Shown here one piece after another: positions 15,013 through 44,155 of a DNA stretch of 64,000 nucleotides (its first letter is position 1; the number at the start of each line of letters is the position of its first letter). Under the pieces are notes generated by a model. It was not told the origin of the DNA and did not search any database. It worked only from the letters and a program-made list of their open reading frames with translations. The DNA comes from Meghimatium bilineatum (taxonomy: Eukaryota > Mollusca > Gastropoda > Stylommatophora > Philomycidae), in assembly GCA_034231615.1 (NCBI GenBank), contig CM067309.1, positions 32,910,088 to 32,974,087 on the forward strand. The letters are read 5' to 3'. The translations under genes were made by a program, and so were the position numbers.

Positions 15013-15780
15013 GCAGTGTGTTCCCTGAAATGTCTGATGTGTCTGGCAGAAAGGCACAGATATGACAGACAAGCAGTGTGTTCCCTGATGTGTCTGGCAG
15101 AAAGGCACAGATATGACAGACAAGCAGTGTGTTCCCTGAAATGTCTGATAGAAAGGCACAGATATGACAGACAAGCAGTGTGTTCCCTAATGTGTCTGGC
15201 AGAAAGGCACAGATATGACAGACAAGCAGTGTGTTCCCTAATGTGTCTGGCAGAAAGGCACAGATATGACAGACAAGCAGTGTGTTCCCTGAAATGTCTG
15301 ATGTGTCTGGCAGAAAGGCACAGATATGACAGACAAGAAGTGTGTTCCCTGAACTGTCTGCCAGAAAGGCACAGATATGACAGACAAGCAGTGTGTTCCC
15401 TGATGTGTCTGGCAGAAAGGCACAGATATGACAGACAAGCAGTGTGTTCCCTGAAATGTCTGATAGAAAGGCACAGATATGACAGACAAGCAGTGTGTTC
15501 CCTGAAATGTCTGATATGTCTGGCAGAAAGGCACAGATATGACAGACAAGAAGTGTGTTCCCTGAACTGTCTGGCAGAAAGGCACAGATATGACAGACAA
15601 GCAGTGTGTTCCCTGAAGTGTCTGGCAGAAAGGCACAGATATGACAAACAAAAAGTGCGTTCCCTGAACTGTCTGATGTGTCTGGCAGAAAGGCACAGAT
15701 ATGAAAAACAAGCAGTGTGTTCCCTGATGTGTCTGGCAGAAAGGCACAGATATGACAAACAAGAGGTGCGTTCCCTGAAC
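15013..15780. repeat. 51/60-bp minisatellite, about 14 units, open in several frames
   Basis: TTCCCT recurs at 15021, 15081, 15132, 15183, 15234, 15285, 15345, 15396, 15447, 15498, 15558, 15609, 15660, 15720 and 15771. Steps are 51 bp, or 60 bp where an extra 9 bp is present (units 1, 6, 10 and 13). Both lengths are multiples of three, so long frames stay open on both strands (plus 15016-15783, minus 14984-15865). Translated units such as C-H-I-C-A-F-L-P-D-T-S-G-N-T-L-L-V do not resemble a known protein. More likely non-coding. Confidence 0.92.
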
Positions 15781-16939: not shown

Positions 16940-17090
16940 TCATTTTCTATTCTTTATCTTCAGTGTCTGCCCTAGTCCTGAGAACGCCTCAAACCTCTTC
17001 TCTTCTTCATCTCTGTTGTCGGCAGTGACAGGAAGTATTTTACGTATGAATGTGATTGTCCCTCGTCTGAAATTATAGTTTGGGATACCC
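16940..17090 (-). CDS. UFD1: UFD1 terminal exon (second SHP box, stop)
   Basis: Acceptor CTATTAG. It encodes [18 protein letters not shown], the conserved C-terminal motif, and later [11 protein letters not shown], the second SHP box, ending N-R-K-stop. The stop is TGA at 16940-16942. The first base completes the Arg codon left open by exon 10. Confidence 0.96.
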
Positions 17091-20000
17091 CTAATAGAAT
17101 AGAGAGGAAACAATGTGCATCAGAAAATAAGTTTTAAAAATAAAATAAAAAATGACAATATAAGTTAATCAAGACACTAGAAAATGTGGGAAAATTAAAT
17201 CTTTCACTCTGGAGCTTTTGTGTGTCTGGAAGCAGATAATTGTTACAATGGAAGTTGTTATCAAAGTCGTGTACTTAGTCTTAGCTACCTTCAGTAATAT
17301 TTAATTGTAGAATCATCAGAGTAACAAAAAAGAGACAGAATCATGAATGAAAAGCATCAAAAGACTAACAAACACAATGCCAATCCTGAATTACATCAGA
17401 AGACAACTGACTAAGTGGTTTTTGCATGCTTCCAGACTACCATCAGACAATGCCCCACAAACAGCATTACTATACACACGATGGATACAAAGCCAGGGGC
17501 AGACCTTGCAAACGATGGATTACAGAAATAAAAAAGTCAATGAAAACAAACATATATGAAGCACACAAAAAAGCCATCTCCAGAGAACTCTTCTACCCCT
17601 GACACTGCAAGGCATAAAGGGGTATAAAGCAAAAAGAACAGTTTATGTACATAGATTATTGTCTTGGCAAACTGGATATGTCAGTAGGTGCTAACGGTTC
17701 TGGTTTGGCAAATCCACTACGGACTGAGGGCTCCAATTTTGTATTGATAGACTTGACATTTTTGTAAGGTGCCTCTCCAAGTCTTATTTCCAATGTTTTC
17801 ATTCTTAACACCACAGTAGATTCATTAAATTGACCCCTCTATCATAAAGAATCATGTAGAGCATTGGGTATGTCATTTCACAACAAATTTTTCTGAATTG
17901 TATCATTCAGAACAATCAGTACACAAAAATATTAAATTGGGAACATCTTTTTAAATTGTGTTAATATTTTTCTGTATTAACCCTTTCACCACTATGAGAT
18001 TTCCCTAATGTCAATTCTCCATCACTAAGACAAAGGGCACAACACCTCCAAATTATCGATATGATGAAATTAAAAATGTATTTTCTTTCAAACTATTCAT
18101 ATCACACTCAGATTTGGCAGATCAACAGAAAAATGAATTCTTACATGAATCTATATCAAAGATATTTTAATACATATATATTTTAAAAATAAACTGTCAA
18201 ACTCAACATAATCTGGGGGAAATGTTTTTCGCCTTGGGGTTGCTAAGTAGTGGAGTCATATTGAGACGAAAATATTGAGATATATTTTCAAATCTTTTTC
18301 CCAAACAGGTTGATATGCCCAAAACGTTGAACCCATCATTAGTACTCCAGTACATGCCATACTCAAGCAGAATACACAGGCCCATCATAATATAAATAGA
18401 AAAAGATGTTTTATCTCAATGGCAGTTATAGATGTATAGCATGTGTCTTCTTTCCTTGCTTGTTCTTTGCATTATGTTATATACAAATTTGTCCAATCTG
18501 CTGTAAATTGATAAACTCGGCATTGACGATGATGCTTAAGTAATCATAACGTGAGGCAATATTTCTTGACTTGTGTGAAACTAAATATAATGATGGTTAC
18601 AATTTTAACTTTTAGTGGATACGACACTGAGTACCTTTTTGTACAAAAATAACAAAAACAGAGCTACACTATCTGACTACAAATTAGTGCAATAGAGCTA
18701 CTGGTAGTTGTAGAAATCGGTGTTGCTAGGAGTGAACATTTTGGAGGGCACAGAAGAATGATGGTCACCCAGTGAGAGATCTGAGAAAACATGGATGTGT
18801 CCAGTTTGCAGTGATGCTGATCAAACAACTAATTAACTAATATTGTTGAAGGTCATACCTTCTTACTGGCCTTGCAAGTGCAGATTCGTTGGGTGCAGTT
18901 TCTCCTTCCTTCTTTTTACCATCTAATCTATTTCCTTGTCCAGCAAAGGGCTGACAACAAAATTATTAAATAAATTGGTGAGCAAAGGTAATATAAATGT
19001 AAACAGAGATGTAATGTTTCTGTGTACGAATGTAATATTTATCTATCGTCTTTTCTCTGCTTATGCTGTGGGGCATAACAGGATTGAAAGACGATAGGTT
19101 TTCACGCTATTGCCCATTTGGTTGCTTGATATGCAGTAATACTGTTACGTGTCAGAATGTTGGTAATTCCTTCAATCCACCTTCTTCTTGGTCTTTCTCT
19201 GTATCTTGTTGTTTCCATTTTCTTGTTGTATGCTCTTGCCGCTGGCCAATAGGTTTAATTCTCATTAGGTGGTCAAACCATTTCAATCTCTGTTTTTCAA
19301 TATATTTGACCACTGATGTTGTTCCAACAGTTCTTGTAATGTCCTAATTTTTCACATGATCTCTTCTTTTTCTGTTTTTCTTAGACATCTCATTTCACAC
19401 ATAGTAAGCTTCTTTCTCTCATGTTCTTTAGTTAGTGTCTATGTCTGACCACGCAAAAGATGGACTACAGAAATAAAAGAATCAACAAAAACAAACAACA
19501 ATGCACACAAAAAGGCAGTCTCCAGAGAATTCTTCTACCTCTGACGATGCAAGGCATAAAGCGGTAAAACACGAAAAGAACGATTTGTGGGTGGATAAAA
19601 AATATAAAATATACAGATATCATTACTTTTTCAATTTTAAAAACACAACTTTTTATTAAATATTTAAATATGTGCACTTGAATATTTATTAACACTTTGC
19701 GGACCAATTTCGACGCTAGTCGAATTTCCGTTACAGAACCTTGCTGATCAAGTTCGACGCTAGTCGAATGCGCTATGATAGATCAGAAAAATGGGAATAC
19801 CCATTGCAATAATGTGCTAAAAATAGTGTTTCCAGGAAATTATGTTCTGTAAAAATGGCGGCATGTCGGGAATAACAATATAGACCTAGTAAGTGAGTTT
19901 TTATCAAGAAATATCGGAGTTTTTGAAGGAAATATTGTATGATATAGAAATTAATGTAAATCTAGGCCTAGCATTATGATAAGTAGCATTTTGAACTTGA

Positions 20001-23000
20001 AATAACTCTGGAGCTCACAAATTCATTCAGAAAGTGCAAACAGTCGTTACAACGTATAGAAAGTTTCAAGGCTTTCTTGCGCTAGATCGATTTTATACTA
20101 ATTTTTAAAGATGGCGATGTCAATGTATACAATTTTGCGTGCACCCTCGGTAATGGCGGACAAGTACACTCTGGATTGCTGGTGGGCAAAGTGTTAAACA
20201 ATGTTTTTATAAAATAAACCAAATGTATGTTGCTGGGATATGAAAAGAAAACGAAGAATAGCAATACTGTGACCTATCCTGTATTTCGTAAGGGCAACTA
20301 AGGAAGTTTGAAGCAATGGGGTTGGTTGTCCCATTCCACAGAAGCTTAAAGTGAATCAAAAGCCATACTGAAGTCAGATGTTTTTAGCTGAAAGATGTAG
20401 ATGTCACAGTCAAGCTGTAAACAATTACACAACATATTCGATTCTCTGGACTACATCCTGTTAATCTGTAGGAGTTTCAGAACGTACGCAGAAGTATAAA
20501 ATAGATAATAAGAATACAAAATCTGTACGCCAATGAGATTCTTTGCCATTGTTCGGATTGTTGACCCACTTGTATTGTTTGCCACCGTTCGGAACGCTAT
20601 AACGTCTGTATTTGTACATTGTCAAGTATGTACACTAAACTATATTTTGGGTCTTGTAGTTCATGTATTCATCCAGCATTTATTTATTTGGTTCAGCTGC
20701 CTGTGCTATCATAAGGATACTACCCAGTGAAAAAATGAGAAGCTTTTTTATCAGGGTTGCATTCTTCCTATTTTACATTATTTATATGAGGCACTTCATT
20801 GAAAATGTTGTTGTAGTCTGATATTGTATTTTGTAAAATCTATTTTATTTTATGTGTTTATATTTTGCATGCACTATACCACACATACATGACATAATCA
20901 TACCATGAACAGCAAATCATCTTGGTCATCAGTTTCCATATCCTAAAATGACAAGAAGACAAAAGTAAAATATTTTAACCACATAGGAAAATAAAGGGGA
21001 AAAGGTCCTTCCCCAAATTAATGGTCTACTTTTTTATCAAATCTGTGCCGATCTGCAATTTTGTATATTTTTGTGATGTCATTTACTGCCTGCTTAGTCC
21101 TAGATAAAAAAAATTGCTATCATAATCATAAGTTTGTTAGAGATGTACAATTATGTAACATTGGCAAGGCTGATGCTGGTTTAAATGATCTGTGTGCCAC
21201 CCACTGAGAGCCCTCCCATCTGCGAGGCAAGCACAGACAGACTCACCAATCCAACCCAACTAAAATAAATATCTTGACTCCACGAAACTACTGATCAGTA
21301 ATTATAGACAGATTAGACAAGGAAAATAATTTGCAGGGAAAAAAAATTGCCAAAATTTTTTTTTTGCATTCCAGAAAAAAAGTAGACCCTTATTTTGGGA
21401 AAGGAATGGGGAAAATATTGATAAACCCATGAAAATGTTGATAAAATTTGATTTGTTCATTTACAAAATGGCAAACATGTTATGTTAATGATATGTTTTC
21501 TGTATTTATCCTTTATTTAAAAATGAAAAATGCTGAAAATCAGGAGTTTGTGTTCTAAAAAAGCTAACAGCTAAACAAGTTTGTTGATCTTATGCTTGAT
21601 GATTCATAGATTAGATTGTGATTGATCTGAAAATGATATGGAAATTGACTGAGGTAATCACTTAATGTGTGAATATAGTAGCAGTGGTAGTATAAATCAC
21701 AACAGTTGTAGTAATGTTCCTGGCTCATCAGTGGTTCAAACTACAATCTGTGGTAGTAGAAAGGACGTATTCTACATACTGTACAAGATAAATTTGATTT
21801 ATGTTGGTCTCCTGCTAATATGTTTGCACCCATATGTAGAGCAGACACAACATTTTTTGAACAGATAAGTCCTAAGAACATTCCAGAATTTGTTTCTTCA
21901 GATAGTAAGGTTATTGAATTTGTAGCATTTTTTCATAGACAAGTTTCTGGTAAAAATTTTATGAGCAGACAAATAAACATGTACGCCGGTGTGTTGCCGG
22001 GGCACGAAAGGGGAGCAAAGAATAGCAAAACTGTTTACCTACCACACATGTCGTAAAAGGCGACTAAGGAGGTTATGGGATGGAGTTGGCTGGCACATCC
22101 CATATAGGGTCAGTGACCCAAAGCCAATCTGAAGTTGGATGTATCAGGCTGAAAGGCGCAGATATTGCAGCAATGCTGTAAACCATGACACAACACATTC
22201 TGTTCTCTGGACTACATCCTGCTAATCTGCAGGAGTTTGAAAATGAATGCAGAAGAAGAAGAAAATATACATGTTAGCAGCAAGATACCTTCCAACTATT
22301 ACATTGAAAGTTATGTATACAGATGTAGCATTTCTAGAGATGAAGGCTTTCTTTCTCGGATTATGCCTTCAAATGGAGTACAGTGTGAGTAAACCACATC
22401 ATGAAGGTTATTGGTCCAACTCGTCAACAACCTGTAATATGCAGATGAAACAGACCTCTTAGCAGTTAGTAGAAAGTCAACAGGTAGTTGTCTTTGTAGC
22501 CAAAGACTAATAGATCTGACAAATCAAGTAAAGAATCATCATCATCAACTGCTGTCTCCGCAACGAGGGTTGTCTGCAACAGATCTCCAACATTATCTGT
22601 CTCTTGTTTTGGTGGTGCACTCTGCTAGACTATAACCTGTCCATCTTGTGTTGTTTCTCTCCCACTTGTATCTCTGCCTACCTCTTGTTCGTCTCCCTTC
22701 AACTTTACCTTCAAGTAAGGTCTTCAACAAGGTGTCATGTCTTTTAATGTGTCCAAAGTATTTTATTTGCCTGATCTTTATTTCTTTTAATAATTCTTTC
22801 TTCATATTAAGTGTTGTTAGAGCCTCTTTGTTTGTTTTCTTCTCTTTCCGTGATGTTCTCCCTATTCTTCTAAATATCCACATCTCAAAGGCATCAATTC
22901 TGTCTTCTAATTGTTTGTTTATTGTCCATGTTTCTCACAAACACCAGTAACTCATCAGTAACTGATTCCAGCTGTGCTAAATTCTTTTCCCAATGACTTC

Positions 23001-26000
23001 CCCCTGTGCTGATTATTTTCCTAAGCTACAAAAATAAGAGAGCTTTCATGACACTGTCTTTTTATTGTCAATAGAAATTATATACAGCACGGATGGAATG
23101 GTTTTCCTATAACAATTTTCATTCCTTTATTATATATACGTCCCAACTGCTTGCATTGTGTTTTTACAATGTCAGTATACCCAGACCATAATAAATCACT
23201 GTGTGTGTGTTGGCTATATAGGAATACGAGTAGCTGCTGCTCCATATGTGCTGATGCCACTGTTTTGAGAACCGCAATTCCTCTCTTGCATCTGTGTATG
23301 ATTTGCTCATCATGAAACCCGTTATGACAGGCTTTAATCGTATGTTGCCCCAAGGTACTTCAGCCCACACTGAACTCTCCATGCTGGACCAACCTATCAG
23401 AGTATACGAGCGCATCCTCACAGAAAATTTAGTGATCATGTAAAACTGCTATTTAACCCTTTTTATATTTTAAACCTCCCGGCAACTTCCTAACGGAAAA
23501 AATGCAGTATTGACATTTTAAAAATATTTTTTCCCAATATTTACTTCCTAAATTATTTCAGAAATTAAATTAACAGCCAGTAAGGAACTTACAGCACAAT
23601 CCATCTGTTCTGACCTTCTATACTTTCTTTCAGGTTCTATGTAACCAACTGAGGGTGCAAAATCAACCTGAAAAATTGTAAAGATTATATACTTGTAAAC
23701 ATGCTTCAAAAGTAATTATATTTAATATGCACTAAACTTTTAGATCTAAACAATAGCAGTAAATGAACTAACACAGTGTCCTCCAGGATAACAAGTGAAT
23801 GTGAAATAATGTACCTGACACTGTCAGCCAAGGTTTTCTTTATTTCTCTATCATTCTCTCTCTGTGTGTATATATATATATATATATATCCCTCTATTAC
23901 TCCATTTTTATTCAAGTGTATTAGGTTCAGGTATGAATATCTAAAAAGAATTAGGTAAAATTGTATATTTGTGTTTCTGTGGGTGTAGTACCAATTTATC
24001 TATAGACCTAAGGTGTGGTTAGGAAGGAAAGGAATTTATTTGACCAAAAACTGTATACATAAGTAAACTAAAGTGGCCTGAATAAGTAAATATCAAATGA
24101 GCTTGAATCATTATCAAGGATGCACAAATTGGGAGTGAGAATGGGTGTGGCCCATAGAGAACACATTACAAATCTTTCAAAAAGAGCAGTGAACCAATAT
24201 AGAACTGGAACCATCAGCTGTTATATTCTGAGAGATTTACTGAAGTGGAGATCTGAGCACCTATGGATGTGTCAGGTGTGAGAAGAGGATAATCAACATA
24301 CTGAACACCTAAAACTAAGTGGTATTAACACTGAATATTTCATTTTCAGAAACTGTCTGAAATAAAACTAAATAACAAAAATATACCTTTAAAAATGAAA
24401 TTTTTAAAATTTTTACAATTTTTTGGTAGAAATTGTTTTTACAAATGTAAATACATACAGAATATCATAAAAATCATGTATCATCTTGAAAGATTCAGGG
24501 ATCCATTGAAAAACATCTGACTTTCAGGGAAACAACTCTTAAAATTGTAAACACAAAGATAATCACGAGTTCAACCATTTAGGTGTAACAAAAATACCAC
24601 ACTGTGCAATATCGGTTATATAAATATAGGCCTATCACTATATATCACTGTATGTTTCTTTTAACCTGTAGAAATCCGAAGTCTACAATTGTCGACAAAT
24701 GTAATCTAGCAATAGAAACCCACTGTCAACAAATGTCTACATCGAGGTAGCCATTTGTAGTCACGGACAACAATCTCCCATGTTTATTTCCCATCATGCT
24801 CTTATAGTAAGTGTGTGCCAGAGTGATTGTTCCTTAGTTTTTTTGCAGTGATATAAATACGCAGTTGTTTTATTTGACCGTTCACGTTTGCAAGGGGAAT
24901 TGCGTAGGCCTAACTTCAGTGCCCCCATTTTTCTCGAATTCTTCACAGATTATGATTCAGAAAAGGACAAATTTTAAAGCTTTAGTGTTTCAGTAACTGT
25001 AGGTCAATGTACGGTGTTTGAGAGAGATGTTTACAATATTTAATAGTGAAGTAATTGATGTCATTTACGATGAAGAATTTGAGGAGCTGTGTTTTCTTCA
25101 GCTAGGCTTACACATGGCCTTGACGCAGTACGTTTTTTGTGTGCTTTTGTCTGCATTCTTGATTTTGGTTGTACACAACATAACACACACAAAAGCAAAT
25201 AACACCTCCAAATCATATCCAGCATCCATTTATCTCTATGTCTCCAAATTTGAGATCAATAACTCAATAAATAAAAACATTACACCAAAAATGCAAGCGT
25301 GAAGAAAAACCAGAAGTCATAAAAAATTGCCAGGTGTCAGAGTGGCATGCATTATTTTTAGCTGGGCTGCTACAGGTTTTTACACATTATTGATATAAAA
25401 GATGCATGTAACACATAATTGAATGAATTGACCATTTATTGACCCCAATAACTGGGAAAAATGTTGCTGAAGGCAGACGTGTATGGAAGTTGGCATTGTG
25501 AAAAGGTACAGAGACTATTGATGTACTTCTTGAGGACAAGCAACAACACACACATAAAGAAAAGATCCACAATAAATTGGGAATAGCAGATATGTGGAAA
25601 ATATATATCTGAATGTTGTGTCTCTAAATACACAAACCTGCTAAATAATAATATGAAAAAAGGCCAATCATACACCAACATTAGATAATCCTATTTTTTA
25701 TTAAGAATAGATAAAAATGTTAGAAGCTGATGCTAAAAATTGCAAGAAGGAAAATAAAAAAATAAAAGAAGGGTTAAATGGAACCAGGTACTAAAGACCC
25801 ACTTGTACAAGAGGTTTTACAAGTGGGTCTCATTTACAAGTGGGTCTCGTTCGCGAACAGTGGATTGAGGCCTTGAGAAAGGCGAGCTTCAAAGTGGTTA
25901 CATTTATTTTCGTGCTGGGACATGTGGATGTTCGAGGCAATGAAAGAGCAGATCAACTGGCATCATGCGCGATTTTGGCACAGGGCAATGGAGCAATGGA

Positions 26001-35000: not shown

Positions 35001-38000
35001 TTGCAAATATTTAGCTAGTTTTCATTTTCCTGTTGTGGCCAATGATTTAGGATTTCACAGTTAGCAACTTGTCCACTTCACATTAATTTTGTATTTAAAT
35101 ACCTTCTTTGTTAGTTATGTTTATTAGTTTGTGAAAACAGCTAACACAACCATAATGTAAATCACAATAAGATTCTTAATTACTGGATATTCAAAATTTG
35201 GATTACAAAATGAAATCACTTGGAATATCCAATGATAATAATAATTATCGTCCAAGACACTCAGTAAATTTTACAAACTGATATTTTTGCTGATATAAAG
35301 TATTCTTGAAGAAAATAGAAACTGTTTTTAAAATTCTACAGTAGGTGCAATATTCATTTCCGTCCAATACTTTTTCTACATATAAAATGAGAAACATTAA
35401 AGAGAGAGAAAGAGAGAATAGAATTCTCTCCGTAACTTCATAAGAATTAAACAACCTAAAATGTTTCTTACTACATACCCAGTAAGGAAGGAATATACGA
35501 CCTTCATCTGCAACAAACTCCAATACACCGCAGTGTGTTTCCCTATTTGTTTTCTTATTGGTCAGTTTGAACAGCATAGGGTATTGAATATTCAACCGTG
35601 CTTGATGACGGAAAAAATTATAAACTTTAAGTATTCAAATGAACAGGTATTTTACATTTTGCAAGAATTAACCATTCATCTTTCAACACTGATATAATGA
35701 TCCCATTTTGCAAGAATTAACCATTAATTCTCTCAGCACTTATATAATGATTCCATTTTGCAAGAATTAACCATTCATCTTTCAACACTGATACAATGCT
35801 CCCATTTTGCAAGATTTAACCATTCATTCTCAAAGCACTGATATAATGCTTCCATCCCATACATCTCAAATTAGACAAGCATTAGACAGCTACATTTAAT
35901 TTACTTTTTGATTCCCAGTACCACCAAAGACGGGTGTGTTGGGACATGGGCACAAATAAAACGATGACACAACGCATTTCCATTCTCTGAACTACATCCT
36001 TTTGGAAATATAGCAGGACCATTGTCCTGTTACAAGAGGGATCCAGCGGGAGTTTGAGAATGAACACTGAAGAAGAAGAAGATCCCCAATAATTATGAGC
36101 AATAGAACTCTTGAATCTTTTTGACTCACTAAGCAAGGGGAAGAGGAGAAAATACCCAGTGAAGAACAGTTGTATGATTGTGACTCACTAAGCAAGTGAA
36201 GGAGAAAATACCTAGAGGAGAACAGTTGTATGATTGTGACTCACTAAGCAAGTGAAGGAGAAAATACCTAGAGGAGAACAGTTGTATGATTGTGACTCAC
36301 TAAGCAAGTGAAGGAGAAAATACCTAGAGGAGAACAGTTGTATGATTGTGACTCACTAAGCAAGTGAAGGAGAAAATACCTAGAGGAGAACAGTTGTATG
36401 ATTGTGACTTACCAAGCAAGGGGGAAGAGGACAAATACCTCATTGGAAAACAGCTATATGATTTTTTTTACACTTGAGAATAGAAATGACAAATTATGTC
36501 TGCATTTTATTTTCACCAATGGTCCAATATATCTGACACTGGTGAAGATTTACTTTATAAATCCATAGATGATATCTACCATATATTACTATATATAAGC
36601 TGATATGTTTCCGAACATTTTTCACAACTGAAGCAGGAAGATTGACTTATATATAGTTTAGGGCCTATATGTAATTTTGAAAAAAAATTACAGACACACA
36701 AGAATATTATATGACAGAAATAGGTATAATAGTACATATCAAGATCTTGTTTTTAAAAACATAATTCTAAGGACCTGTAAGTATATTTCTCAAATCATTT
36801 CTAAAATCGATCATATCCTTCAAAATTAGAATTAGTATTTAAATTCCCATACAATTTATAGAGATCACTCTCTGTCACATGGATATCAGGATACATTGCA
36901 TTATCATCCTTTACAACACTGTTAACATCATCATACTCCATAAATATTCTGCCCCATTACATAACTGATCTACAACTTTTTTACAGAATAGATGATATCT
37001 TATTGAGTGGTCCATCTACATTTTTTTCACACTCTCCATGATTGTGATACACATGTGGTTGGGTGTGGGTCTCACCAATGGCCCACTAGACATACTACCC
37101 ATGCAACAGAAAACCTTAATGGATGACATGCCGTTATATTGAGGTTATCTCCTTAGAGAAGCTTCATGGCATGTCATCTATACAATTATGCTTTTATTTT
37201 GTTGTTGAAATGTGTTTCATGTTTACCTGAATATATATGTATGCACCCTCTGTAGTTGGGAGGGAGCCAGAGATGTACTGTGCAGCACTGGGGAGGAGGA
37301 AACTGATTTTTATAGCTGAAACCCATCATAGAGGCACAGTGACTCAGGACGTGACAACCCATTTGACTTGAACATTTGGGTGCATGCCTGGAGCAATAGA
37401 GAAGTTCGGCATAACCAGTAGTCAATTGATGGTGGGGAATGAGCACAGTGAACCCTATCTTGGCTACGGTGGCTAGGAGCAGTGCATAGGTTGAAACCTA
37501 CCTTCCTGGGTGTGTGATAGTTATTTTCTGGCTCTGTCCCGGGGTGGGCCAAAAATCCACAGACTGCCCAGCAATATAATGCCATTTAATGGCATTACGT
37601 CGAAAGGCATGAACCCATGGACCGCTGGATTAGCAACCAACCGACCAAACCAACCATGATTGTGAGGATGTCACTCTGTTTTAAAGCCAACCTTTTATCA
37701 CTGCTGTGTCAAAGAATGACATCCACTTTTTATATTTTGCCTTTGGTCTATTTAAGTTGTTTGTCAATGATGTGGATGAGTGAGGAAAGATCTTGTCCTG
37801 TCCAGATGTTTGTCTGCTTAAATACAGACTTATAGTGTTGGTTCATTTTGTTATTGGAAATAACAGGCAATACCACAGTTTTTCTCTGCTCAGTCTGAGC
37901 AGACTCTGGTCTCTGGGACACACTGAAAGGATGGGGAAGATGGCAGAATACTGAATGATTTACTTTATGGAGAAATACAGTCTGGAAAAATCTCTCCTAA

Positions 38001-41000
38001 CTTAGTAGAGTCAAGCTCTACTTTGGTACAAAAAACTATGCAAACACTGTGTGCATAATACAGACATTGATATGGAATAGTGGGAACATCGGATCATGTT
38101 GCATGAAGGGCAAAGATCAGGAATGACACAAAGACAAAAGAGAAAGTGAACCAGATAGTTCAAAGGCTGCAAGTCAAAAAAGATGAAAAACAGCCCACAA
38201 TAGTACAAGTAGGCCTGGCATGTTATTCCTTGTACATACTGTGGATGACTCATTGTGAAAAACAGCCCACAATAGTACAAGTGGGCCTGGCATGTTATTC
38301 CTTGTACATACTGTGGATGACTCATTGTGACTCAGATTGGTCTTGTAAGTCACGTCCATCATCGCCATGGATGCATGTTATACTTCGTATAGCACAACAC
38401 TAATACTATCATCTGGAAAGACAGAAGGTTTCTACTACTAATTTTAGATCCCCATTATATTATAATTATAGGAAATGACCATACTCGGTTTATACACAAT
38501 AATATATAGGGTAATTACTTTCAGAGAAAAGTATACTTACTCAACTGATCCAAAGCTGATGGGGGCATGATAACTGTGGATAGAAGGCAGAGTAATTAAC
38601 AATTATATAATATGAGACTCTGCATAGTCTACAGGTAAACAAATCACACCTCCCTACATCGGTCAGTAAAATAAAACAAAATTGTTTCACTTTACCACAC
38701 AATTGAGAAATGTTAGGGAATACTGTGTACATTTTTTCTAAATGACCAATGGCATGCTAAGGGATGATGTGATCAGCGTCAAGCCAGCCACCTTGACTTT
38801 CCCATCAGATCTGGTACTCATTTGCCTTACCCATCTTGGTACAGATACATCTGTGCAATGGTACAAGAAATGTGCAGATATCACAGTTAAATTTGTACAG
38901 AGTAGAATACTACTCTGTGCAATGATACAAACATACTACTCTGTGCAATGATACAAACATACTACTCTGTGCAATGATACAAACATACTACTCTGTGTGC
39001 AATGTTACAAACACATTACTCTGTCAAATGATACAAGCATAAAACTCTGTGTAATGGTACAAACATATACACTCACAATGATATGTGCAATGCCACATAC
39101 ACTCACAATGATATGTGCAATGTTACATACACTCACAATGATATGTGCAATGTCACATACATCACATACACTCACAATGATATATGCAATGTTACATACA
39201 CTCACAATGATATGTGCAATGTTACATACACTCACAATGATATGTGCAATGTTACATACACTCACAATGATATGTGCAATGTTACATACACTCACAATGA
39301 TATGTGCAATGTTACATACACTCACAATGATATATGCAATGTCACATACACTCACAATGATATGTGCAATGTTACATACACTCACAATGATATGTGCAAT
39401 GTTACATACATCACATACACTCACAATATGTGCAATGACAACACGTACAAAAGCAGACATCAACAAGAACTATGAACAAATGTGATAAGATTAAACTTAC
39501 TTTTTCCTCCTCGTTCTACATCTTCCCTGTCCCCAAGAACACTGACACTGAAGCATTTATATGTTGCTTGAAATGTCCGCCCGGCTGGGAATTCCGGAAA
39601 TGCATTAAAACTAAACTGTAATTTAACGAAAAAATAAAATTAATTGTAAGAATAACAAGACAGTTAAAAAAAATTAAAGTTTTTTCAGTATATGTGTATG
39701 TACAATTATCAGTGTATCTTCTTACATTGTGTAATTCTTAAATCACTGCTAGCTATCCTGTACAAATTTAACTGATCTGCGCAATTCTGCCTGACACATT
39801 CGAACTCAGCATGGTTTCCGAGTCACTTTGACCTTCTATAGGATGGGACAACCAACTCCACCCCAAAAACTTGTTAGTCACTTCATTTGATATGCATGGA
39901 AGACAAACAGTTTTGCTATACTTTTCTGTCCTTACAGACCTCTGTAAAACACAGGCAACCAAGCACCTACAGGTGCAACCTGATTCAGAGTGAGTGTGAT
40001 GATGTCAAGTAATTGAGAATTCTACCAGTACAGTATGTTAGTAATTCTCAAACTATTTTTATCATGGTCCACTTTATGGTCCACTTTCTTATCTCTGTTC
40101 TCCCCCCCCCCCCATTCCCACAAAAGATGAATGGGAATATCACCTGCTGGGTTGTTACCCCTTTACTCCTCCGTCTTCGTTCTGCTTGTTATCAAATTCT
40201 CAAATGTCCTAGCACCATTATGCAGTCTGGTTCTGCATGCCTGGTGATCTTCCACCAGGTTTTCCCAGTTTTCGAGCATGATGACAAAGCCATTCATAGA
40301 TGTTTTGTGCCTTCTTTGTATAGAAGATTTGGTCTGCCTCATTTTCTTGCACCATGTGAGAGTTCCTCATATAGCAGTTGTTTTGCAATGTGGTCAAGCC
40401 ACTTGAGTCTTCTATGACCAATTGTGGATATTATTGTTGTTGGAACTTTTGCATTTGCCCTTTGGAGGATCTTGGTGTTGGTCATTTTATCTGTCCACCT
40501 AATGCTCAGAAATTTAGGAAGACAGCTAAGTGGAAGCTATTCAGTTTTTGTTTTTGCCTCGTGTAAAGTGTCCATGTTACTGAGTAGCATACTGTTATTA
40601 GTAATACTAAGATATAGGCCTACTGTATATACTCGTACTAAAGACATTTTTGGGAAAATTTCAAGGGAAAAAGGGGAAGGGGTCAGGTTACGAATGAGTG
40701 AGCTTATTATCTGATAGTTGACAATTTGTATACTGCTAATTTTGACCATATACAACAGCCAACTGTTTTATTCTGATGTCACATAGGGCATGCAAAATTA
40801 CCAGTATATTCCTACTTCTGCTCAGATACAATGCGCACTCATTCACCAAATGTTTACCGCCATTGTTTATGAAAGAACGAACGTAAGAAATAACATTATC
40901 CCATAATCTTGAAAATGAATAGTGAAATTGTTCAACATAAAAGAAAGAGATCTACTTATGATTCATTATTTAAACTGAATTTTAGTTATGCTGTTATACA

Positions 41001-43637
41001 TCAATTTTAGTTATACGTCAGTTATACTGAAGGAAGCAATAATGTATAATTGTGTAGCAGCTCATCATTTTTGTGTTGATGAGAAACAAGTACAAGAATG
41101 GAGGAAAAATAAAATGTAGATCAAAGAAATGCCAAAGACCAAGAAACAATGTTCAACAAGGTGTGCTTTATTTGCAGAATTGGAAAAAGATCTTAAAGAT
41201 TGGCTCGTTGAATGTCATCAAAATGGCTACATGGAGAGATGATCAGGAATTCATTTGCATAATGTGCAAATGATGAAAGAAGCAAAATACAGGTAGGTTG
41301 TACTTATTACTTTTGTTGCATCAGCTGGTTGGTGTACAAGATTTATGAATTGTCATGATCTATGCTTACATGAGCGCACTGAAATAGACAAAAGCTGCCT
41401 AATGACCTTGAAGACAAAATTGAATCGTTTCAGAGATTTATAATTCAACATAGAAAAAAGTCGTCATTTGAGCTAAATGGGCCATGTATGGTAGGATTAA
41501 ATTTCATCTGATATGATTTTAAAATTATTTACGAAATACTGCATCCATAACAAACTTAATGGACTGAAAGATGATGTTTTATTCGATGAATCAGACGAAG
41601 AAATAAAACAGGGAGGCTGAAGATTGTAGCAACAGCACATATGAGGACAATGTTAAAACAAACGAAGAGTTTCATGCATTGCGGGAGACTCGGGTGAATC
41701 AGACTTTGAAGGAGTTTAACTATTGGTAAGTAAGCCTACAGTAATTTTGTATATCATTAGTAGATACCATAATTGAAAGGCAAAAAAGATAGGAATGCTG
41801 TATTTTCACTTTTTTTTGTTATCCACTTTCCAAAATTGGGGGTGGGGGTGGCTTATTGACATGAGAGTACTTATTTGGTTTTTTCCTTCCAAAATCGGGG
41901 GGTGGTGGTGTCAGATTATGAGCGAATGATCTTTAGAACGAACATAGGTCCTATATGGCAATATAAAATTAATAATATAAAAAATAGTATGTGGGTCTCT
42001 AAATTAGTTGAAGCCTAATTGTAAATAGAAAATATTATTAGGCCATATTATGATGGATGCACTCATCATCATCAGGTGCCATGCTGGCTGGCGTAGGCGG
42101 TAATGGCTCTCCACAGTATTATGTATTAAGATCGTTGTTGTTTCCCTGAAGTGCCAGGTTGTCAAACTGTCTAATATTTTCTCACGTTGTCGCCCTCCTG
42201 TTGCCTTCAATTTTGCTTGCTGTGACTATATTCTCCAAACCTGCCTGTCTCATGAAGTGGCCAAAAAGATAAGATTGTCTTTTTCTTATATTATTGATTA
42301 AGGTTCATTTCTAGTGATGGATGCACTAGGTTAAGTAAAATCTACCTCTCATGATGACATATGCTCCTTTCAACTGTGGACGTTAGTCCAATTTGCTTAT
42401 ATCAGAGCTTTACAACCATAAAAAAATAGTGGAGGTTGCGGTTCTAGTTATCCGGTCTCCACAGTATACAGTTATCCCTGGCTACTTCGCGGTTCATTTA
42501 TCGTGGTCTCAGTACATCGCGGATTTCTAAAAACATATTTACAGTATGTATACTTTAGTTACATCTACATATGTTACACACACACACGTATCATATTTAT
42601 ATTATTGATACATTATTTAATGCACGTTATTTATACTATTAATATTTTATTTACATGTTTGAAACTATTCTTTAATGTTCTAAGGATAACATATGCACTT
42701 AATGGTTACATATGCACTTATTGATATTATACATACACAAAAAATGTATGTGTGTTAAAAATGAGAGTATGACACTACTTCACAGTTTTTCACTTATCAC
42801 TGCCGGTTCTGGTCCCTATTAACTGCGATAACTGAGGGATGACTGTATATTAGTAGGGGCCTATCATATTGCTGTAGGCCTACATAAATGTATAATTTGC
42901 AAAATATGTTATCACAAATAATTAAGAAATTTAGTAAATATATAGGCCTATTTAATTCAATCTTAATTATGTAAATTTAACGCCATTTTGAATAAAAATT
43001 ATCTCTGGTTGCTTCTAAAAATTACATCAATGTAATAGACAGATGCATCTTGAATTCCCTAACATAAAAATGTATGGTTTGTATAATATTTTATAGTAAA
43101 CAGCAACGATATTTCTGAAATTATTAGCTCGGCTCTACTTCTCACACACACAGTAGTGAAGTCACACTTGTTCTAAAGATGTAAGTTTATAATATATATG
43201 TTCTATGTAAATTATTTTGGTGTAAAAATAATTCATAAACAATGCATAACTTTTTTCAGAATTGGCCTACAGACGTGGTTGATGTATCGTCGAATTACAA
43301 TTTTCAAGGACTATCTAGCTGTGGTATTTATAATGCTGTAACTGTAGACTGTAACCCATTGTGATTATAAAATTTAGTCCAAGTAGGCCCTACACTCAAT
43401 GTAACACTGTGTGTGTCATGTGTGTGTATGTATTAATTGAAATGTATGAGTATGCGCCGTAACAGGCATACTCCGCATAGTATGCGGAGTATGCCTGTTA
43501 CTGTTACTGTTAGTAGTGTTAGTCATACTATTTTATTTTAAAGACTCCCATACCTATACACAGTCGTATTCTATTTGCAAAAAATTTATTATTGTACACA
43601 TTTACAACATTTTAAACAAACCATTTGACATTACCAT
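16940..43637 (-). CDS. UFD1: UFD1, ubiquitin recognition factor of the p97-NPL4 complex (whole spliced gene)
   Basis: UFD1 pairs with NPL4 to recruit polyubiquitylated substrates to the p97/VCP unfoldase in ER-associated degradation and other extraction pathways. Ten coding exons are read on the minus strand at 39501-39615, 38541-38573, 35479-35600, 32187-32317, 28690-28762, 26359-26427, 23593-23667, 20904-20942, 18859-18950 and 16940-17090. Each has AG/GT borders and the codon phases agree at every junction. With an ATG-only first exon the sum is 903 nt, or 300 aa plus stop, close to the usual length of about 307 aa. Residues 2 to about 195 form the double-psi barrel ubiquitin-binding domain; the two SHP boxes for p97 lie near residues 222-229 and 287-294. 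The frame is open throughout, so the gene looks functional in spite of its repeat-filled introns. Seen: peptides, splice sites and phases. Known: family function. Inferred: the first exon. Confidence 0.95.
17345..17640 (+). mobile_element. LINE 3' fragment, family B, in the last UFD1 intron
   Basis: Plus-strand [19 protein letters not shown] matches the family B C-terminus; 17560-17600 corresponds to the [11 protein letters not shown]-x-P end. Confidence 0.75.
17641..18714. other. UFD1 intron, no recognisable feature
   Basis: AT-rich. A TTAACCCTTTCAC near 17978 resembles a piggyBac-type terminus, but no matching right end was found. Confidence 0.4.
18715..18841 (+). mobile_element. LINE 3' fragment, family A, abutting the UFD1 exon 10 donor
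   Basis: Carries GTGTTGCTAGGAGTGAACAT, a deletion, then CCAGTTTGCAGTGATG and a degraded (AACT)n tail ending near 18841. The UFD1 exon 10 donor GTATGACC is at 18851-18858, so the insert leaves only about 10 bp of native intron beyond the splice site. Confidence 0.78.
18859..18950 (-). CDS. UFD1: UFD1 exon 10 (first SHP box)
   Basis: Acceptor TTGTCAG and donor GTATGA. It encodes [14 protein letters not shown], the first p97-binding SHP motif (F-x-G-x-G-x-x-L), then a variable linker ending V-R plus two bases of an Arg codon. A LINE 3' end lies within about 10 bp of the intronic end of the donor. Confidence 0.94.
19040..19440 (-). mobile_element. LINE 3' fragment, family J (RTE-like)
   Basis: Minus-strand [16 protein letters not shown], the conserved C-terminal motif of RTE/CR1-like elements. 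Related to 43800-44155. Confidence 0.65.
19445..19590 (+). mobile_element. LINE 3' end, family B
   Basis: About 145 bp matching 17520-17640 (GATGGACTACAGAAATAAAA and TCCAGAGAATTCTTCTACC), severely 5'-truncated. Confidence 0.75.
19693..20193. mobile_element. piggyBac-type MITE with TTAA duplication (copy 1)
   Basis: Flanked by TTAA at 19689-19692 and 20194-20197. The termini CACTTTGCGGACCA and TGGTGGGCAAAGTG are inverted repeats. Two subterminal near-palindromes TTCGACGCTAGTCGAA lie about 45 bp apart. About 501 bp, non-coding. A second copy lies at 33007-33510. Confidence 0.9.
20240..20475 (+). repeat. SINE-like repeat, family S
   Basis: Degraded copy: AAGAATAGCAATACTG, GGCAACTAAGGAAG and CTGGACTACATCCTGTTAATCTG. 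Confidence 0.7.
20480..21735. other. UFD1 intron, apart from exon 9 no feature
   Basis: AT-rich sequence; only the 39-bp exon at 20904-20942 is recognised here. Confidence 0.4.
20904..20942 (-). CDS. UFD1: UFD1 exon 9 (39-bp acidic microexon)
   Basis: A 39-bp, in-phase microexon between ATTTTAG and GTATGA. It encodes [13 protein letters not shown], an acidic segment before the first SHP box, as in other UFD1 proteins where this linker is poorly conserved. Support comes from splice sites, phase and position more than from sequence identity, so it could be alternative or skipped. Confidence 0.7.
21740..22475 (+). pseudogene. piggyBac-like transposase fragment split by a SINE
   Basis: 21820-21982 encodes a stretch ending [11 protein letters not shown] and Q-I-N-M-Y-A. 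After the SINE (21983-22262) the sequence continues with [21 protein letters not shown] and H-H-E-G-Y-W-S. This recalls the start of the piggyBac transposase domain (T-N-x-Y-A, then E-M-K-A-F-L-G, then Y-W-S). Short and diverged, so tentative; it is antisense to UFD1. Confidence 0.5.
21983..22262 (+). mobile_element. Complete family S SINE with target duplication
   Basis: Flanked by AAATAAACATGT (21971-21982) and AAATATACATGT (22263-22274), 11 of 12 matching. It runs from ACGCCGGTGTGTTGCC, through GTCGTAAAAGGCGACTAAGG and GGCTGAAAGGCGCAGATA, to GCAGAAGAAGAAGAA, a (GAA)n tail. This copy defines family S, the commonest short repeat in the window. I see no convincing tRNA A/B boxes. Confidence 0.88.
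22520..22945 (-). mobile_element. LINE 3' end, family C
   Basis: Minus-strand [19 protein letters not shown], then [13 protein letters not shown] and C-G-D-S before a (GAT)n tail near 22530. In a UFD1 intron. Confidence 0.82.
22985..23450 (-). mobile_element. LINE remnant, family A-like (RT thumb/linker)
   Basis: Minus-strand [20 protein letters not shown] aligns with K-V-M-A-A-A-Q-C-E-Q-R-L-L-F-L-L-Y of the 44156-46485 copy, followed by G-L-G-I-L-T-L. Frameshifted. Confidence 0.65.
23593..23667 (-). CDS. UFD1: UFD1 exon 8
   Basis: A 75-bp exon, 25 codons, with acceptor TTTCAG and donor GTAAGT. It encodes [15 protein letters not shown], corresponding to the V-D-F-x-A-P-x-G-Y-x-E-P segment at the end of the barrel domain, followed by a variable linker. 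Confidence 0.92.
23862..23890. repeat. (TG)n(TA)n microsatellite
   Basis: TGTGTGTA followed by about ten TA units. Confidence 0.95.
24105..24320 (+). mobile_element. LINE 3' fragment, family A
   Basis: Matches the end of family A: GAACACATTACAA, CAATATAGAACTGGAACC and GATCTGAGCACCTATGGATG. Old and mutated. Confidence 0.55.
24330..25785. other. UFD1 intron, nothing identified
   Basis: A 94-codon plus frame at 25018-25302 has an acidic start (I-Y-D-E-E-F-E-E-L) and a hydrophobic centre. It might be a transposon-derived fragment, but no family is recognised. Confidence 0.4.
25798..26280 (+). mobile_element. 5'-truncated LINE, family A, with 12-bp target duplication
   Basis: Flanked by AGGTACTAAAGA at 25786-25797 and 26281-26292. 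It encodes the end of RNase H ([18 protein letters not shown]) and the C-terminal tail [11 protein letters not shown], then (AACT)n. Nearly identical to 44159-44600, hence young. The 5' junction carries about 50 bp of filler with ACAAGTGGGTCTC repeated and inverted. Confidence 0.93.
26359..26427 (-). CDS. UFD1: UFD1 exon 7
   Basis: A 69-bp exon, 23 whole codons, with acceptor CCTCAG and donor GTAAGT. It encodes [11 protein letters not shown], then [10 protein letters not shown], a strongly conserved UFD1 block. A recent LINE insertion ends only about 70 bp away in the downstream intron. Confidence 0.95.
26600..26940. repeat. 38-bp minisatellite, about 9 units
   Basis: GTTGCAAGAATGTATTTTG starts at 26625, 26663, 26701, 26739, 26777, 26807, 26845, 26883 and 26921. 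One unit has lost 8 bp. In the UFD1 intron upstream of exon 7. Confidence 0.93.
26965..27240 (-). repeat. SINE-like repeat, family S, near full length
   Basis: Minus-strand copy: TTCTGCGTTCATTCTCA, AGCAGGACGTAGTCCGGAGA, CAGCCTGACACATTTAACC and TTCTTTGCTCTCCTCTTGGGCC. Confidence 0.8.
27700..28062 (+). mobile_element. LINE 3' end, family D
   Basis: Plus-strand [17 protein letters not shown], then [16 protein letters not shown] and a (TTGA)n tail at 28045-28060. Very similar to 9728-10060. Confidence 0.82.
28075..28625. repeat. Irregular minisatellite of TATCACAGTAGAAATGTAG units
   Basis: The core ATCACAGTAGAAATGTA recurs more than 15 times with spacings of about 20 to 45 bp. It ends about 65 bp from UFD1 exon 6. 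Confidence 0.9.
28690..28762 (-). CDS. UFD1: UFD1 exon 6
   Basis: A 73-bp exon after an ACCAG acceptor, ending at GTAACT. It encodes [12 protein letters not shown], then [12 protein letters not shown], matching the conserved segment after N-P-K-A-V. It sits between two minisatellites (28075-28625 and 29066-29575). Confidence 0.95.
29066..29575. repeat. 72-bp minisatellite, 7 units, perfect spacing
   Basis: CCTCTACCACAAGCCTAGT recurs at 29066, 29138, 29210, 29282, 29354, 29426 and 29498, with a partial at 29570, each exactly 72 bp apart. In a UFD1 intron. Confidence 0.95.
29576..30280. other. UFD1 intron, nothing identified
   Basis: Contains an 11-nt C run at about 29629-29639; otherwise no feature. 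Confidence 0.4.
30282..30843. repeat. Element bounded by a perfect 36-bp inverted repeat
   Basis: 30282-30317 (GTACTTACGTATTACACAGG...) is the exact reverse complement of 30808-30843. GTGTCAATTAGTAC at 30272-30285 recurs at 30886-30899, a possible 14-bp target duplication around 30286-30885. The interior holds the motif TTGATAAAGACC..GGTTGAAACG (minus, 30405-30434) and a nested SINE. Possibly Penelope-like. Confidence 0.8.
30524..30797 (-). mobile_element. tRNA-derived SINE (type 1), second copy
   Basis: Minus-strand copy of 11378-11636 with the same A/B boxes and the GGTACCGGATTAATCCGGGAAG body; a few substitutions (for example AGCGCAGTGG in the A box). It sits inside the inverted-repeat element at 30282-30843. 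Confidence 0.9.
31071..31244. mobile_element. Short Tigger/mariner-like MITE, 174 bp
   Basis: Begins CAGTGGAATCCCATTATAACAA and ends TTATAAAAGAATGCACTATAGAGGGATTTCACTG, imperfect inverted termini (CAGTGRAATCCC, TATAACAA) next to a TA/TT site. Non-coding. Confidence 0.75.
31315..31905. repeat. 39/42-bp minisatellite, about 14 units
   Basis: Units contain TAAATTAAGTGACACTATCAG and AACTATGAACTCACTTGA. In a UFD1 intron. Fortuitous frames give a repeated [11 protein letters not shown]. Confidence 0.93.
32187..32317 (-). CDS. UFD1: UFD1 exon 5
   Basis: Starts after GTAAAG and encodes I-M-R-N-L, then [11 protein letters not shown] and [10 protein letters not shown], all diagnostic of UFD1. It ends with two bases of a Val codon. 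The donor implied by phase is GTATCC, a weak 5' splice site, chosen because exon 6 supplies the third base (A). Confidence 0.95.
32470..32640 (+). repeat. SINE-like repeat, family S (variant 3' part)
   Basis: GTGTCTGGCCATTGGCACAGATAAAACG, TTCTCTGAACTACATCCT and TTTGAGAATGAATGTTGA. Shares an inserted block (AGTAGGACCATTGTCTTGTTAC) with 35925 and 59665, which marks a subfamily. Confidence 0.7.
33007..33510. mobile_element. piggyBac-type MITE (copy 2)
   Basis: Alignable over its full length to 19693-20193. The right end GCAAAGTG is followed by TTAA (33511-33514); the left TTAA has decayed. The subterminal TTCGAC motifs are partly mutated. Confidence 0.88.
33535..33965 (+). repeat. Dispersed repeat, family H (copy 1)
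   Basis: CACCAATGGCCCACTAGACA, CCATGCAACAGAAAACCTTA, GCACCCTCTGTGGTTGGGAGG and GACTCAGGACATGACAA occur in the same order at 37035-37640; the first part recurs at 50000-50140. Identity unknown. Confidence 0.75.
34005..34130 (-). mobile_element. LINE fragment, RT C-terminus (RTE-like)
   Basis: Minus-strand [20 protein letters not shown], the conserved RT thumb motif. Confidence 0.7.
34131..35470. other. UFD1 intron, nothing definite
   Basis: AT-rich; 34540-34610 resembles 22990-23060 (part of a LINE), otherwise featureless. Confidence 0.4.
35479..35600 (-). CDS. UFD1: UFD1 exon 4
   Basis: Encodes [15 protein letters not shown], then [13 protein letters not shown] and L-P-Y-W, the most conserved stretch of the UFD1 barrel domain. 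The acceptor is pyrimidine-rich and ends in TCAAG; the donor is GTATGT straight after the Trp codon. The length is 122 bp, ending in phase 0. Confidence 0.96.
35645..35860. repeat. About 52-bp tandem repeat, 4 units
   Basis: CATTTTGCAAGAATTAACCATT recurs four times with CAACACTGATATAATG between; it starts about 45 bp upstream of the exon 4 acceptor. Confidence 0.88.
35925..36085 (+). repeat. SINE-like repeat, family S (variant 3' part)
   Basis: CATTTCCATTCTCTGAACTAC, AGCAGGACCATTGTCCTGTT and GAATGAACACTGAAGAAGAAG. Confidence 0.72.
36122..36462. repeat. 56-bp minisatellite, 6 units
   Basis: GACTCACTAAGCAAG starts at 36122, 36182, 36238, 36294 and 36350, with a variant at 36406. The central units look identical, so it is recent. 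Confidence 0.95.
37035..37640 (+). repeat. Dispersed repeat, family H (longest copy)
   Basis: Extends beyond copy 1 with GCACAGTGACTCAGGACGTGAC, GGGTGGGCCAAAAATCC and ATGGCATTACGTCG, ending in an (ACCAACCG)-like tail near 37630. The tail suggests a retroposon. Confidence 0.72.
38185..38328. repeat. 72-bp tandem duplication
   Basis: 38185-38256 and 38257-38328 differ by one base (TAGGCC/TGGGCC). Confidence 0.95.
38541..38573 (-). CDS. UFD1: UFD1 exon 3 (33-bp microexon)
   Basis: A 33-bp microexon between a CCACAG acceptor and a GTAAGTATAC donor. It encodes [11 protein letters not shown] with split codons at both ends, exactly the family segment missing between exons 2 and 4. The phase (2 bases in, 1 base out) fits both neighbours. 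Confidence 0.93.
   Translation of the reverse strand, partial: LSCPHQLWIS
38880..39060. repeat. About 26-bp tandem repeat
   Basis: Units of CTACTCTGTGCAATGATACAAACAT, six or seven copies, the later ones diverged; it grades into the next array. Confidence 0.88.
39065..39430. repeat. 30-bp minisatellite, about 12 units
   Basis: CACTCACAATGATATGTGCAATGTTACATA repeated; a few units have a 9-bp insertion (CATCACATA). Open in several frames because the unit is a multiple of three. Confidence 0.95.
39501..39615 (-). CDS. UFD1: UFD1 exon 2
   Basis: The acceptor is TTACAG and the donor GTAAGT. It encodes residues 2-39, starting [10 protein letters not shown], then Y-K-C-F-S-V-S-V-L, and ending E-D-V-E-R-G-G-K plus the first base of the next codon. 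This is the characteristic UFD1 N-terminus. A 30-bp minisatellite lies about 70 bp into the downstream intron. Confidence 0.93.
39780..39945 (-). repeat. SINE-like repeat, family S (5' part)
   Basis: CTGACACATTCGAACTCAGC, CCGAGTCACTTTGACC and TATGCATGGAAGACAAACAG. Confidence 0.75.
40130..40600 (-). mobile_element. LINE remnant, family K
   Basis: Minus-strand [13 protein letters not shown], then [14 protein letters not shown] and [13 protein letters not shown], the C-terminal domain of CR1/RTE-like LINEs. Frameshifted. Confidence 0.8.
40620..41950 (+). pseudogene. pogo-superfamily transposon remnant
   Basis: Plus-strand decayed transposase: [15 protein letters not shown] near 40940; [14 protein letters not shown] (HTH/CENP-B type) near 41075; M-P-K-T-K-K then [11 protein letters not shown] near 41130-41210; [15 protein letters not shown] near 41405-41450; and N-K-L-N-G and L-F-D-E-S-D-E-E near 41550-41605. 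The DDE catalytic core is missing between these last two, an internal deletion. Candidate ends are ACTCGTACTAAAGACA on the left and TGACATGAGAGTA on the right, with G-rich subterminal repeats. Confidence 0.75.
42060..42300 (-). mobile_element. LINE 3' end, family D-like
   Basis: Minus-strand [21 protein letters not shown], then a C-terminus and (GAT)n at 42060-42075. Confidence 0.72.
42469..42845. mobile_element. Tigger/pogo-type MITE with TA duplication
   Basis: The termini CAGTTATCCCTGGCTACTTCG and its counterpart CAGTCATCCCTCAGTTATCGC (right end, reverse strand) are inverted repeats flanked by TA (42467-42468, 42846-42847). Internal TTCGCGGTT, ATCGCGGATTT and CACTTATCAC are typical of this group. 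About 377 bp, no coding. Confidence 0.85.
42850..43450. other. No recognisable feature
   Basis: AT-rich, several TAGGCCTA-type words; no motif. Confidence 0.4.
43459..43501. repeat. Perfect 43-bp palindrome
   Basis: 21-bp arms (43459-43479 and 43481-43501) around a single central G; the arm starts GTAACAGGCATACTCCGC. No mismatch. Confidence 0.97.
43635..43637 (-). CDS. UFD1: UFD1 exon 1 candidate (start codon only)
   Basis: Exon 2 opens directly with F-S-F-N, the residues that follow the initiator Met in the family, so exon 1 should end in ATG just before a GT. Here an ATG in good context (AACAATGG) is followed by GTAATG. CpG-containing sequence and an ETS-like ACTTCCGG lie about 90 bp upstream. 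A second ATG followed by GTAACG at 43771-43773 is an alternative, but it abuts a LINE. The position is inferred from phase and context only. Confidence 0.4.
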
Positions 43638-43639
43638 TG

Positions 43640-43770
43640 TTTAAATTCTGAAGCCTGACTTAATAATATAAATATAAACATTAGAGCCTAACGTCGCGAA
43701 TTTCAAACCAACCGGTTTACATCCGGAAGTTTACATTTACTGAAAGTTATCCACTTTTTTCTAACGTTAC
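43640..43770 (-). promoter_or_regulatory. Candidate UFD1 promoter and 5' UTR
   Basis: Unusually CpG-containing for this AT-rich window (GTCGCGAA, ACCGGT, CCGGAAGT). On the minus strand it carries ACTTCCGG at 43723-43730, an ETS-like motif typical of housekeeping promoters. It lies directly upstream of the candidate ATG exon, and a LINE begins at about 43800. Inference only; no TATA box is obvious. Confidence 0.35.
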
Positions 43771-43799
43771 CATAACAACGGTCTTAGATATATCCTCAG

Positions 43800-44155
43800 G
43801 TGGATGAGTGTCAGAATATCCACACATGCCGTTAAGCGTAGGGGTTGTGACTGTGAGCTTTAATTGTCTATCAAAGTCCAGATGTGTCGCCTTGTCTGCG
43901 TTGAATCCGTATTTGTTCAGTGTTGTCTTTATATTAACTATCCATCTTGTTCTAGGTCTTCCTCTGGTCTTGTATCCAGATCTTCTTATGATATACCAAA
44001 GTTTGTACTATATGTTCTTGTTGATAGTTGGTAATGGTTCATTTTCATAAGTAGACCAAACCATTTTATTTGTTGTTTCTCGATGTATTATGTGCATGGT
44101 CTTATACCGATTCTTCTCCTGATTTCATCATTTCTGATTTTGTCTTGATTCTTAG
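43800..44155 (-). mobile_element. LINE 3' fragment, family J
   Basis: Minus-strand I-E-K-Q-Q-I-K-W-F-G-L-L-M-K, then G-R-P-R-T-R-W-like sequence; it lies just upstream of the putative UFD1 promoter and meets the 3' tail of the family A LINE at about 44155. Confidence 0.72.

Follow-up and report, generated by a model that had tools for sequence, protein, structure and literature searches.

Eleven coding exons of UFD1 on chromosome 12

The window, by which we mean the whole 64-kb stretch of DNA that was analysed, is C12:32910088-32974087, C12 and C7 being chromosomes 12 and 7 of Meghimatium bilineatum, a stylommatophoran land slug. On its minus strand, positions 16940-43637 hold a complete UFD1 gene, for which our splice model comprises 11 coding exons of 3, 115, 33, 122, 131, 73, 69, 75, 39, 92 and 151 bp (exons 1 to 11). 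Spliced together they form a coding sequence of 903 bp, translated into 300 amino acids followed by a stop codon, and all ten introns have GT-AG borders. Their phases agree, as the first-pass annotation of this DNA had claimed for a 300-aa UFD1. The measured span of 26,698 bp, with a coding share of 3.4%, likewise agrees with the earlier figure of about 27 kb. The ten coding exons of 33–151 bp that had been described correspond to exons 2–11, but the gene has 11 instead of ten, because an ATG begins at the end coordinate given at the time, 43637, and implies a 3-bp exon 1. Introns of 0.9–4.0 kb are ordinary for this species, since the HiFAP row of the published annotation table gives a mean intron of 3.3 kb, with a mean exon of 196 bp (PMC10770140).

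Searching the window by tblastn with human UFD1 matched nine of the 11 exons, in order and on one strand (minus), which excludes a match by chance; E-values ranged from 2e-16 to 0.16 for the 64-kb subject, five of them being below 1e-5, and exons 1 and 9 were not matched. Exons 2 (39501..39615, E 3e-6), 3 (38541..38573, 11 amino acids, E 0.031), 4 (35479..35600, E 2e-16), 5 (32187..32317, E 1e-13), 6 (28690..28762, E 5e-9), 7 (26359..26427, E 1.3e-5), 8 (23593..23667, E 0.16) and 10 (18859..18950, E 0.002) are placed by tblastn and by the splice model alike, and exon 11, which contains the stop codon (16940..17090), was matched with E 7e-10. To call the gene hidden, as had been done, is too strong, because a single ordinary homology search reaches nine of its 11 exons. 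Downstream of exon 11, AATAAA occurs at 16608, 16601 and 16470.

UFD1 helps the cell to pull apart ubiquitin-tagged proteins; its N-terminal double domain binds ubiquitin chains, its C-terminal segment binds NPL4 and the SHP motif docks it on VCP/p97. Comparison of the translation with UFD1 families confirmed its identity: in a phmmer search, residues 1–300 aligned to residues 1–306 of human UFD1 (9yrc_H, 307 aa; E 4.4e-111), and a Pfam scan of the 300-aa protein detected UFD1_N1 (E 2.7e-40) and UFD1_N2 (E 7e-37), with 136.3 bits for PF03152 (cut-off 29) and 125.8 bits for PF24842 (cut-off 37), and nothing besides these two at E ≤0.001. The slug protein has the two N-terminal subdomains, the two SHP boxes and the RGIPNY..G.ITFIR segment in common with human UFD1, and 186 of 298 aligned residues are identical, whereas the acidic linker, with the 13 amino acids of slug exon 9, has diverged. 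The SHP boxes lie at residues 219–229 (11 aa, spanning exons 9 and 10) and 283–294 (12 aa, in exon 11), and both align to the human ones. The putative NPL4-binding segment of 17 aa, in the C-terminal part of UFD1, occupies residues 251–267 and aligns to human RGIPNYEFKLGKITFIR; it is encoded in exon 11, except that the codon of its first R straddles the exon 10–11 junction. Two structures that we take to be yeast Ufd1 (8dar_H and 1zc1_A) share the N-terminal double domain with the slug protein (E 1.8e-63 and 2.7e-62), but the match to 8dar_H stops at residue 226 and the remainder is unaligned. By these features, the window gene is an ordinary UFD1 with the standard parts of a VCP-NPL4 adaptor. 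Among the papers listed by a literature search, none dealt with UFD1 in land snails.

The sequence around the gene is rich in repeats. We scanned 92 of at least 110 flank ORFs in the window, the longest after repeat and low-complexity filters, against Pfam, and none of them gave a credible host gene. One of these 92 ORFs resembled a Glyco_transf_22 exon (E 0.0013), which was dismissed after a genome-wide search for this family listed 16 places, none of them on C12, and another matched Herpes_UL37_2 (E 0.0083), which was taken as chance. Rfam and tRNA scans of the 64-kb window found nothing. On the minus strand, an ORF with a reverse transcriptase match (RVT_1, E 8.7e-11) lies at 5519-6055 and has a related piece on C7. 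The repeat element at 6331-7673, which contains direct repeats of 106 bp, is 94% and 88% identical to two C7 copies, situated beside and inside the UFD1 gene on that chromosome (80 kb compared). A tandem array of a 164-bp unit in about 17 copies, with a longer period of 475 bp, lies where the window is richest in AT (55714-58469); a search of this array for inverted repeats contributed nothing to the analysis. A second array at 15034-15778 (51-bp unit, about 14 copies) contains three ORFs of 255–293 aa on both strands, which are likely a by-product because the unit length is divisible by three.

The second copy on chromosome 7

A genome search with a draft of the UFD1 protein returned 16 places, divided equally between C12 and C7. 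The eight on C7 belong to a second UFD1 gene on the plus strand at C7:29473050-29499939, which encodes 303 aa over a span of 26,890 bp; the slug genome thus holds two UFD1 genes, compared with presumably one in human. The first-pass annotation mentions neither this copy nor the U12-type intron or the genome duplication treated below. The C7 gene is like the window copy in having 11 coding exons in the same order and phases and a U12-type intron 5. Eight of the 11 exon lengths are equal, and the C7 copy exceeds the window copy by 3 bp in each of exons 2, 9 and 11. The two proteins are identical at 242 of 300 aligned residues, and the 58 differing residues lie mostly in the tail: identity is 171/187 (91%) over residues 1–187 and 71/113 (63%) in the tail. 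Among the tail sites where the window copy departs from human UFD1 and the C7 copy does not, RKILP in the window stands against RNVRP in C7 and RNSRP in human.

At the nucleotide level, the copies differ at 196 positions, with 38, 28 and 130 differences at codon positions 1, 2 and 3. The NG86 method gave a dN of 0.114 and a dS of 1.42, which is near saturation and imprecise (bootstrap interval 0.98–2.65, 199 of 200 replicates usable), and a dN/dS of 0.043–0.127. With human UFD1 as outgroup, 17 unique changes were assigned to the window copy and 11 to the C7 copy, a difference that is not significant (chi-square 1.3).

A piggyBac-type transposase, as we take it to be, is encoded by a 597-aa ORF with DDE_Tnp_1_7 (E 1.3e-89) and zf-Tnp_2 matches about 18 kb upstream of the C7 gene (L019:2978-4768, plus strand).

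Intron 5, exon 9 and the first exon

The U12-type consensus is an RTATCCTTT donor together with a TTCCTTRAY branch point close to the 3' splice site. Intron 5, a phase-2 intron, is U12-type in both UFD1 copies, with the donor GTATCCTTT in each (32178..32186 in the window, minus strand) and a branch-point sequence that reads TTCCTTGAC, 14 nt before the intron end, in the window (28776..28784, minus strand) and GTCCTTAAC, 13 nt before it, in C7. Donor and branch point fit the consensus used at 9/9 and 9/9 positions in the window and at 9/9 and 8/9 in C7. Because such 9-mers occur by chance (the donor has two matches in the 64-kb window with 1.81 expected, the branch point one with 3.5 expected), the evidence is that a single intron carries both motifs, one at either end, in each of the two copies. 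U12 and U6atac snRNA genes were found in the slug genome, with one match each. According to a table in PMC7367187, human UFD1 has a U12-type phase-2 intron after AGCCGT; the counterpart in pufferfish is listed there as U2-type. The human intron interrupts the same valine codon as the slug intron (Lys-Ala-Val, AAAGCTGT). Since it is of U12 type in human at this codon and in both slug copies, the type of intron 5 is, judged by the sequences compared, an old and known feature of UFD1 that was kept in both copies. Two tandem arrays are located inside intron 5 of the window gene (29067-29573, 72 bp x 7, and 31322-31902, 42 bp x 14).

The two smallest exons of the original ten had been called microexons. 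Both have counterparts in the C7 gene, of 33 bp for the 33-bp exon 3 and of 42 bp (29492278-29492319) for the 39-bp exon 9 (20904..20942, minus strand), but the label is overstated because 33 and 39 bp exceed the 30-nt limit given in PMC7821500; the limit stated in PMC12409088 is 51 nt. Exon 9, whose 13 amino acids complete SHP box 1, requires closer consideration, as exons 8 and 10 are both phase 0 and their direct junction is also in frame, so that a spurious exon 9 would leave a protein of 287 aa. Furthermore, when candidate exons from the exon 8–10 interval of the two copies are paired (92 x 63, giving 5,796 pairs), the exon 9 pair ranks only third by similarity, behind two versions of one pair inside a shared 72-bp stretch, and in a blastn comparison of these intervals it is a weak match (20/23 bases, E 4.3). 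Scans of the interval that demanded a 39-bp C7 exon or the 'LGF' motif found no partner, the former because the C7 exon measures 42 bp. Against a spurious exon stands the homologous C7 exon, which encodes EIETDDENEFHMFR: reading both stretches, we found in each copy an open exon of phase 0 between an acceptor and a donor, with GT-AG borders. In both, exon 9 moreover supplies F-x before PFAGQGNRL, as in human UFD1 (GFRAFSGSGNRL), and thereby restores the F-x-[AP]-F-[SA]-G-x-G motif of SHP box 1. As similarity alone gives only the third rank, position, phase and motif have to be added to it to make the case for exon 9; the 287-aa version was rejected on the homologous exon and the restored motif, and we regard a spurious exon 9 as very unlikely. 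Exon 9 may be a cassette exon.

The weakest part of the gene model is the predicted exon 1, which would consist of the start codon only (ATG|GTAATG, 43635..43637, minus strand) and was placed by means of the human N-terminus and the C7 copy. Human UFD1 starts with MFSFN and slug exon 2 with FSFN, and ATG|GT is present in both copies above exon 2, at a distance of 4.0 kb in the window and 3.8 kb in C7. The C7 start, ATG|GTGAGC at 29473050, is located below an upstream stretch of 17 bp that is shared between the copies and may be a promoter element (core AACTTCCGGAT; 43721..43737, minus strand, and C7:29472928-29472944). It lies 84–100 bp above the ATG in the window and 106–122 bp above it in C7, and is identical at 16 of 17 bases, which taken alone is not significant (E 0.94). 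A pattern scan for an ATG exon, applied to 16.9 kb of C7, yielded two candidates there; it yielded none in the window, where the donor GTAATG departs from the scan pattern. The observed/expected ratio of CpG is 1.55 at 43600-43800 versus 0.43 for the window, and it also reaches 1.54 in the 200-bp bin 44400-44600. This bin lies within the remains of a broken retroelement on the minus strand (44168-46141) with an RNase H match barely over the cut-off (E 1.2e-5) and, by eye, RT-like ORFs; related ORFs also occur on C7.

Origin of the pair and its VCP-NPL4 partners

A genome duplication in Stylommatophora has been described in an analysis of ten species that included M. bilineatum (PMC12328838), and the Ks maxima assigned to it in PMC9392753 are 1.61 in Arion and 1.71 in two Lissachatina. 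The dS of the UFD1 pair is near these published values, with the qualification that the estimators differ and that our interval is wide. The paralogues lie on different chromosomes and have common introns, so that the second UFD1 is not a retrocopy. Two gene pairs besides UFD1 join C7 and C12. A homeodomain search, in which 150 of 252 candidates were scored, listed 121 matches; among the matches listed, two are on C12 and three on C7. Both C12 matches have a sister on C7 among the matches listed, in pairs that we name CUX-like (146/198 residues identical, 74%) and LHX1/5-like (122/210, 58%), sisters being compared between these two chromosomes only, and the third C7 match has no C12 partner among the matches listed. 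The homeobox pairs do not date the duplication, because dS was saturated and not computable for the CUX-like pair and 2.04 for the LHX1/5-like pair. Seven of the best ten matches of the homeobox search are located on C17 or C25.

Taken together, we consider it very probable that the window contains a complete, living UFD1 that is one of two ohnologues from the stylommatophoran genome duplication, the other being on chromosome 7. A small-scale, dispersed duplication could instead have produced the second copy, and the surroundings lend this some weight: the ORFs scanned in the TE-rich flanks of the two loci revealed no common neighbour gene, and only two further gene pairs join C7 and C12. When the window was compared with 80 kb of C7, the first 80 blastn matches listed and the first 60 listed matches between ORFs were mainly repeats and some UFD1 exons, and a Pfam scan of seven of at least 125 listed C7 ORFs (695 kept) and three window ORFs gave transposon domains only. 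Nevertheless, a dispersed duplication is unlikely, as both of the C12 homeobox matches listed pair with C7, VCP is doubled too, the shared introns argue against a retrocopy and dS is near the Ks maxima reported in PMC9392753. Still more improbable, to a degree that makes it practically negligible, is that the two loci represent haplotypes or arose by misassembly. In favour of such an artefact it may be said that purging of redundancy reduced the published assembly from 1.80 to 1.63 Gb (PMC10770140), but the loci are on different chromosomes, dS is about 1.4, 58 of 300 residues differ, and the exon 8–10 interval and the upstream region align in short pieces only. As a separate observation on the assembly, the chromosome-sized C2 contains a COX1 fragment (C2:121989805-121990428, L031:1501-2124) with 208 residues open in the invertebrate mitochondrial code, which represents either mitochondrial DNA inserted into the nuclear genome or a join made during assembly.

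A further question is whether the window copy is a decaying duplicate, a young pseudogene that drifts while the C7 copy does the work. It carries the larger number of unique changes (17 versus 11, not significant), and stoichiometry does not call for two UFD1 genes, since NPL4 was found only once. On the other hand, at a dS of about 1.4 its 11 exons have retained an open frame with neither stop codon, frameshift nor lost splice site, third positions hold 130 of the 196 nucleotide differences, and 171 of the first 187 residues are identical between the copies. Decay is therefore a quite improbable explanation, and the open frame, both Pfam domains, both SHP boxes and the third-position bias relative to C7 bear out the first-pass view that this is probably a living gene and not a pseudogene.

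Regarding the partners of UFD1, the VCP/p97 N-terminal region was detected in two multi-exon copies of four places each (C18:8728738-8732966 and C19:1289150-1291583), and NPL4 in five places, all in one stretch (C23:24992371-24997891); these copy counts are lower bounds. The 300-aa product would bind ubiquitin chains via its N-terminal double domain and NPL4 via its C-terminal segment, and its two SHP boxes would dock it on VCP/p97, so that it would bring ubiquitylated clients to the VCP unfoldase. Gene structure, domains, motifs, the second copy and the codon-position bias are seen in the sequence itself; transcription, splicing with removal of intron 5 by the minor spliceosome and function of the protein are inferred, as would be any division of labour between the copies. 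A speculative and rather doubtful extension is that each UFD1 copy forms an adaptor of its own with NPL4 and that these two adaptors direct VCP to different clients or different tissues; it is suggested by copies that are alike in the ubiquitin-binding part and have diverged in the acidic linker and the tail, and by the presence of two UFD1, two VCP and at least one NPL4.

We regard these results as a sound gene annotation and not as a discovery: the gene is conserved, has small exons, lies in a genome of 1.6 Gb and had been read correctly by eye. They provide a clean candidate ohnologue pair, both members of which have kept an old U12-type intron. The pair may be of modest use for asking why UFD1 and VCP remained in two copies when the land-snail genome had doubled, whereas NPL4 apparently did not.
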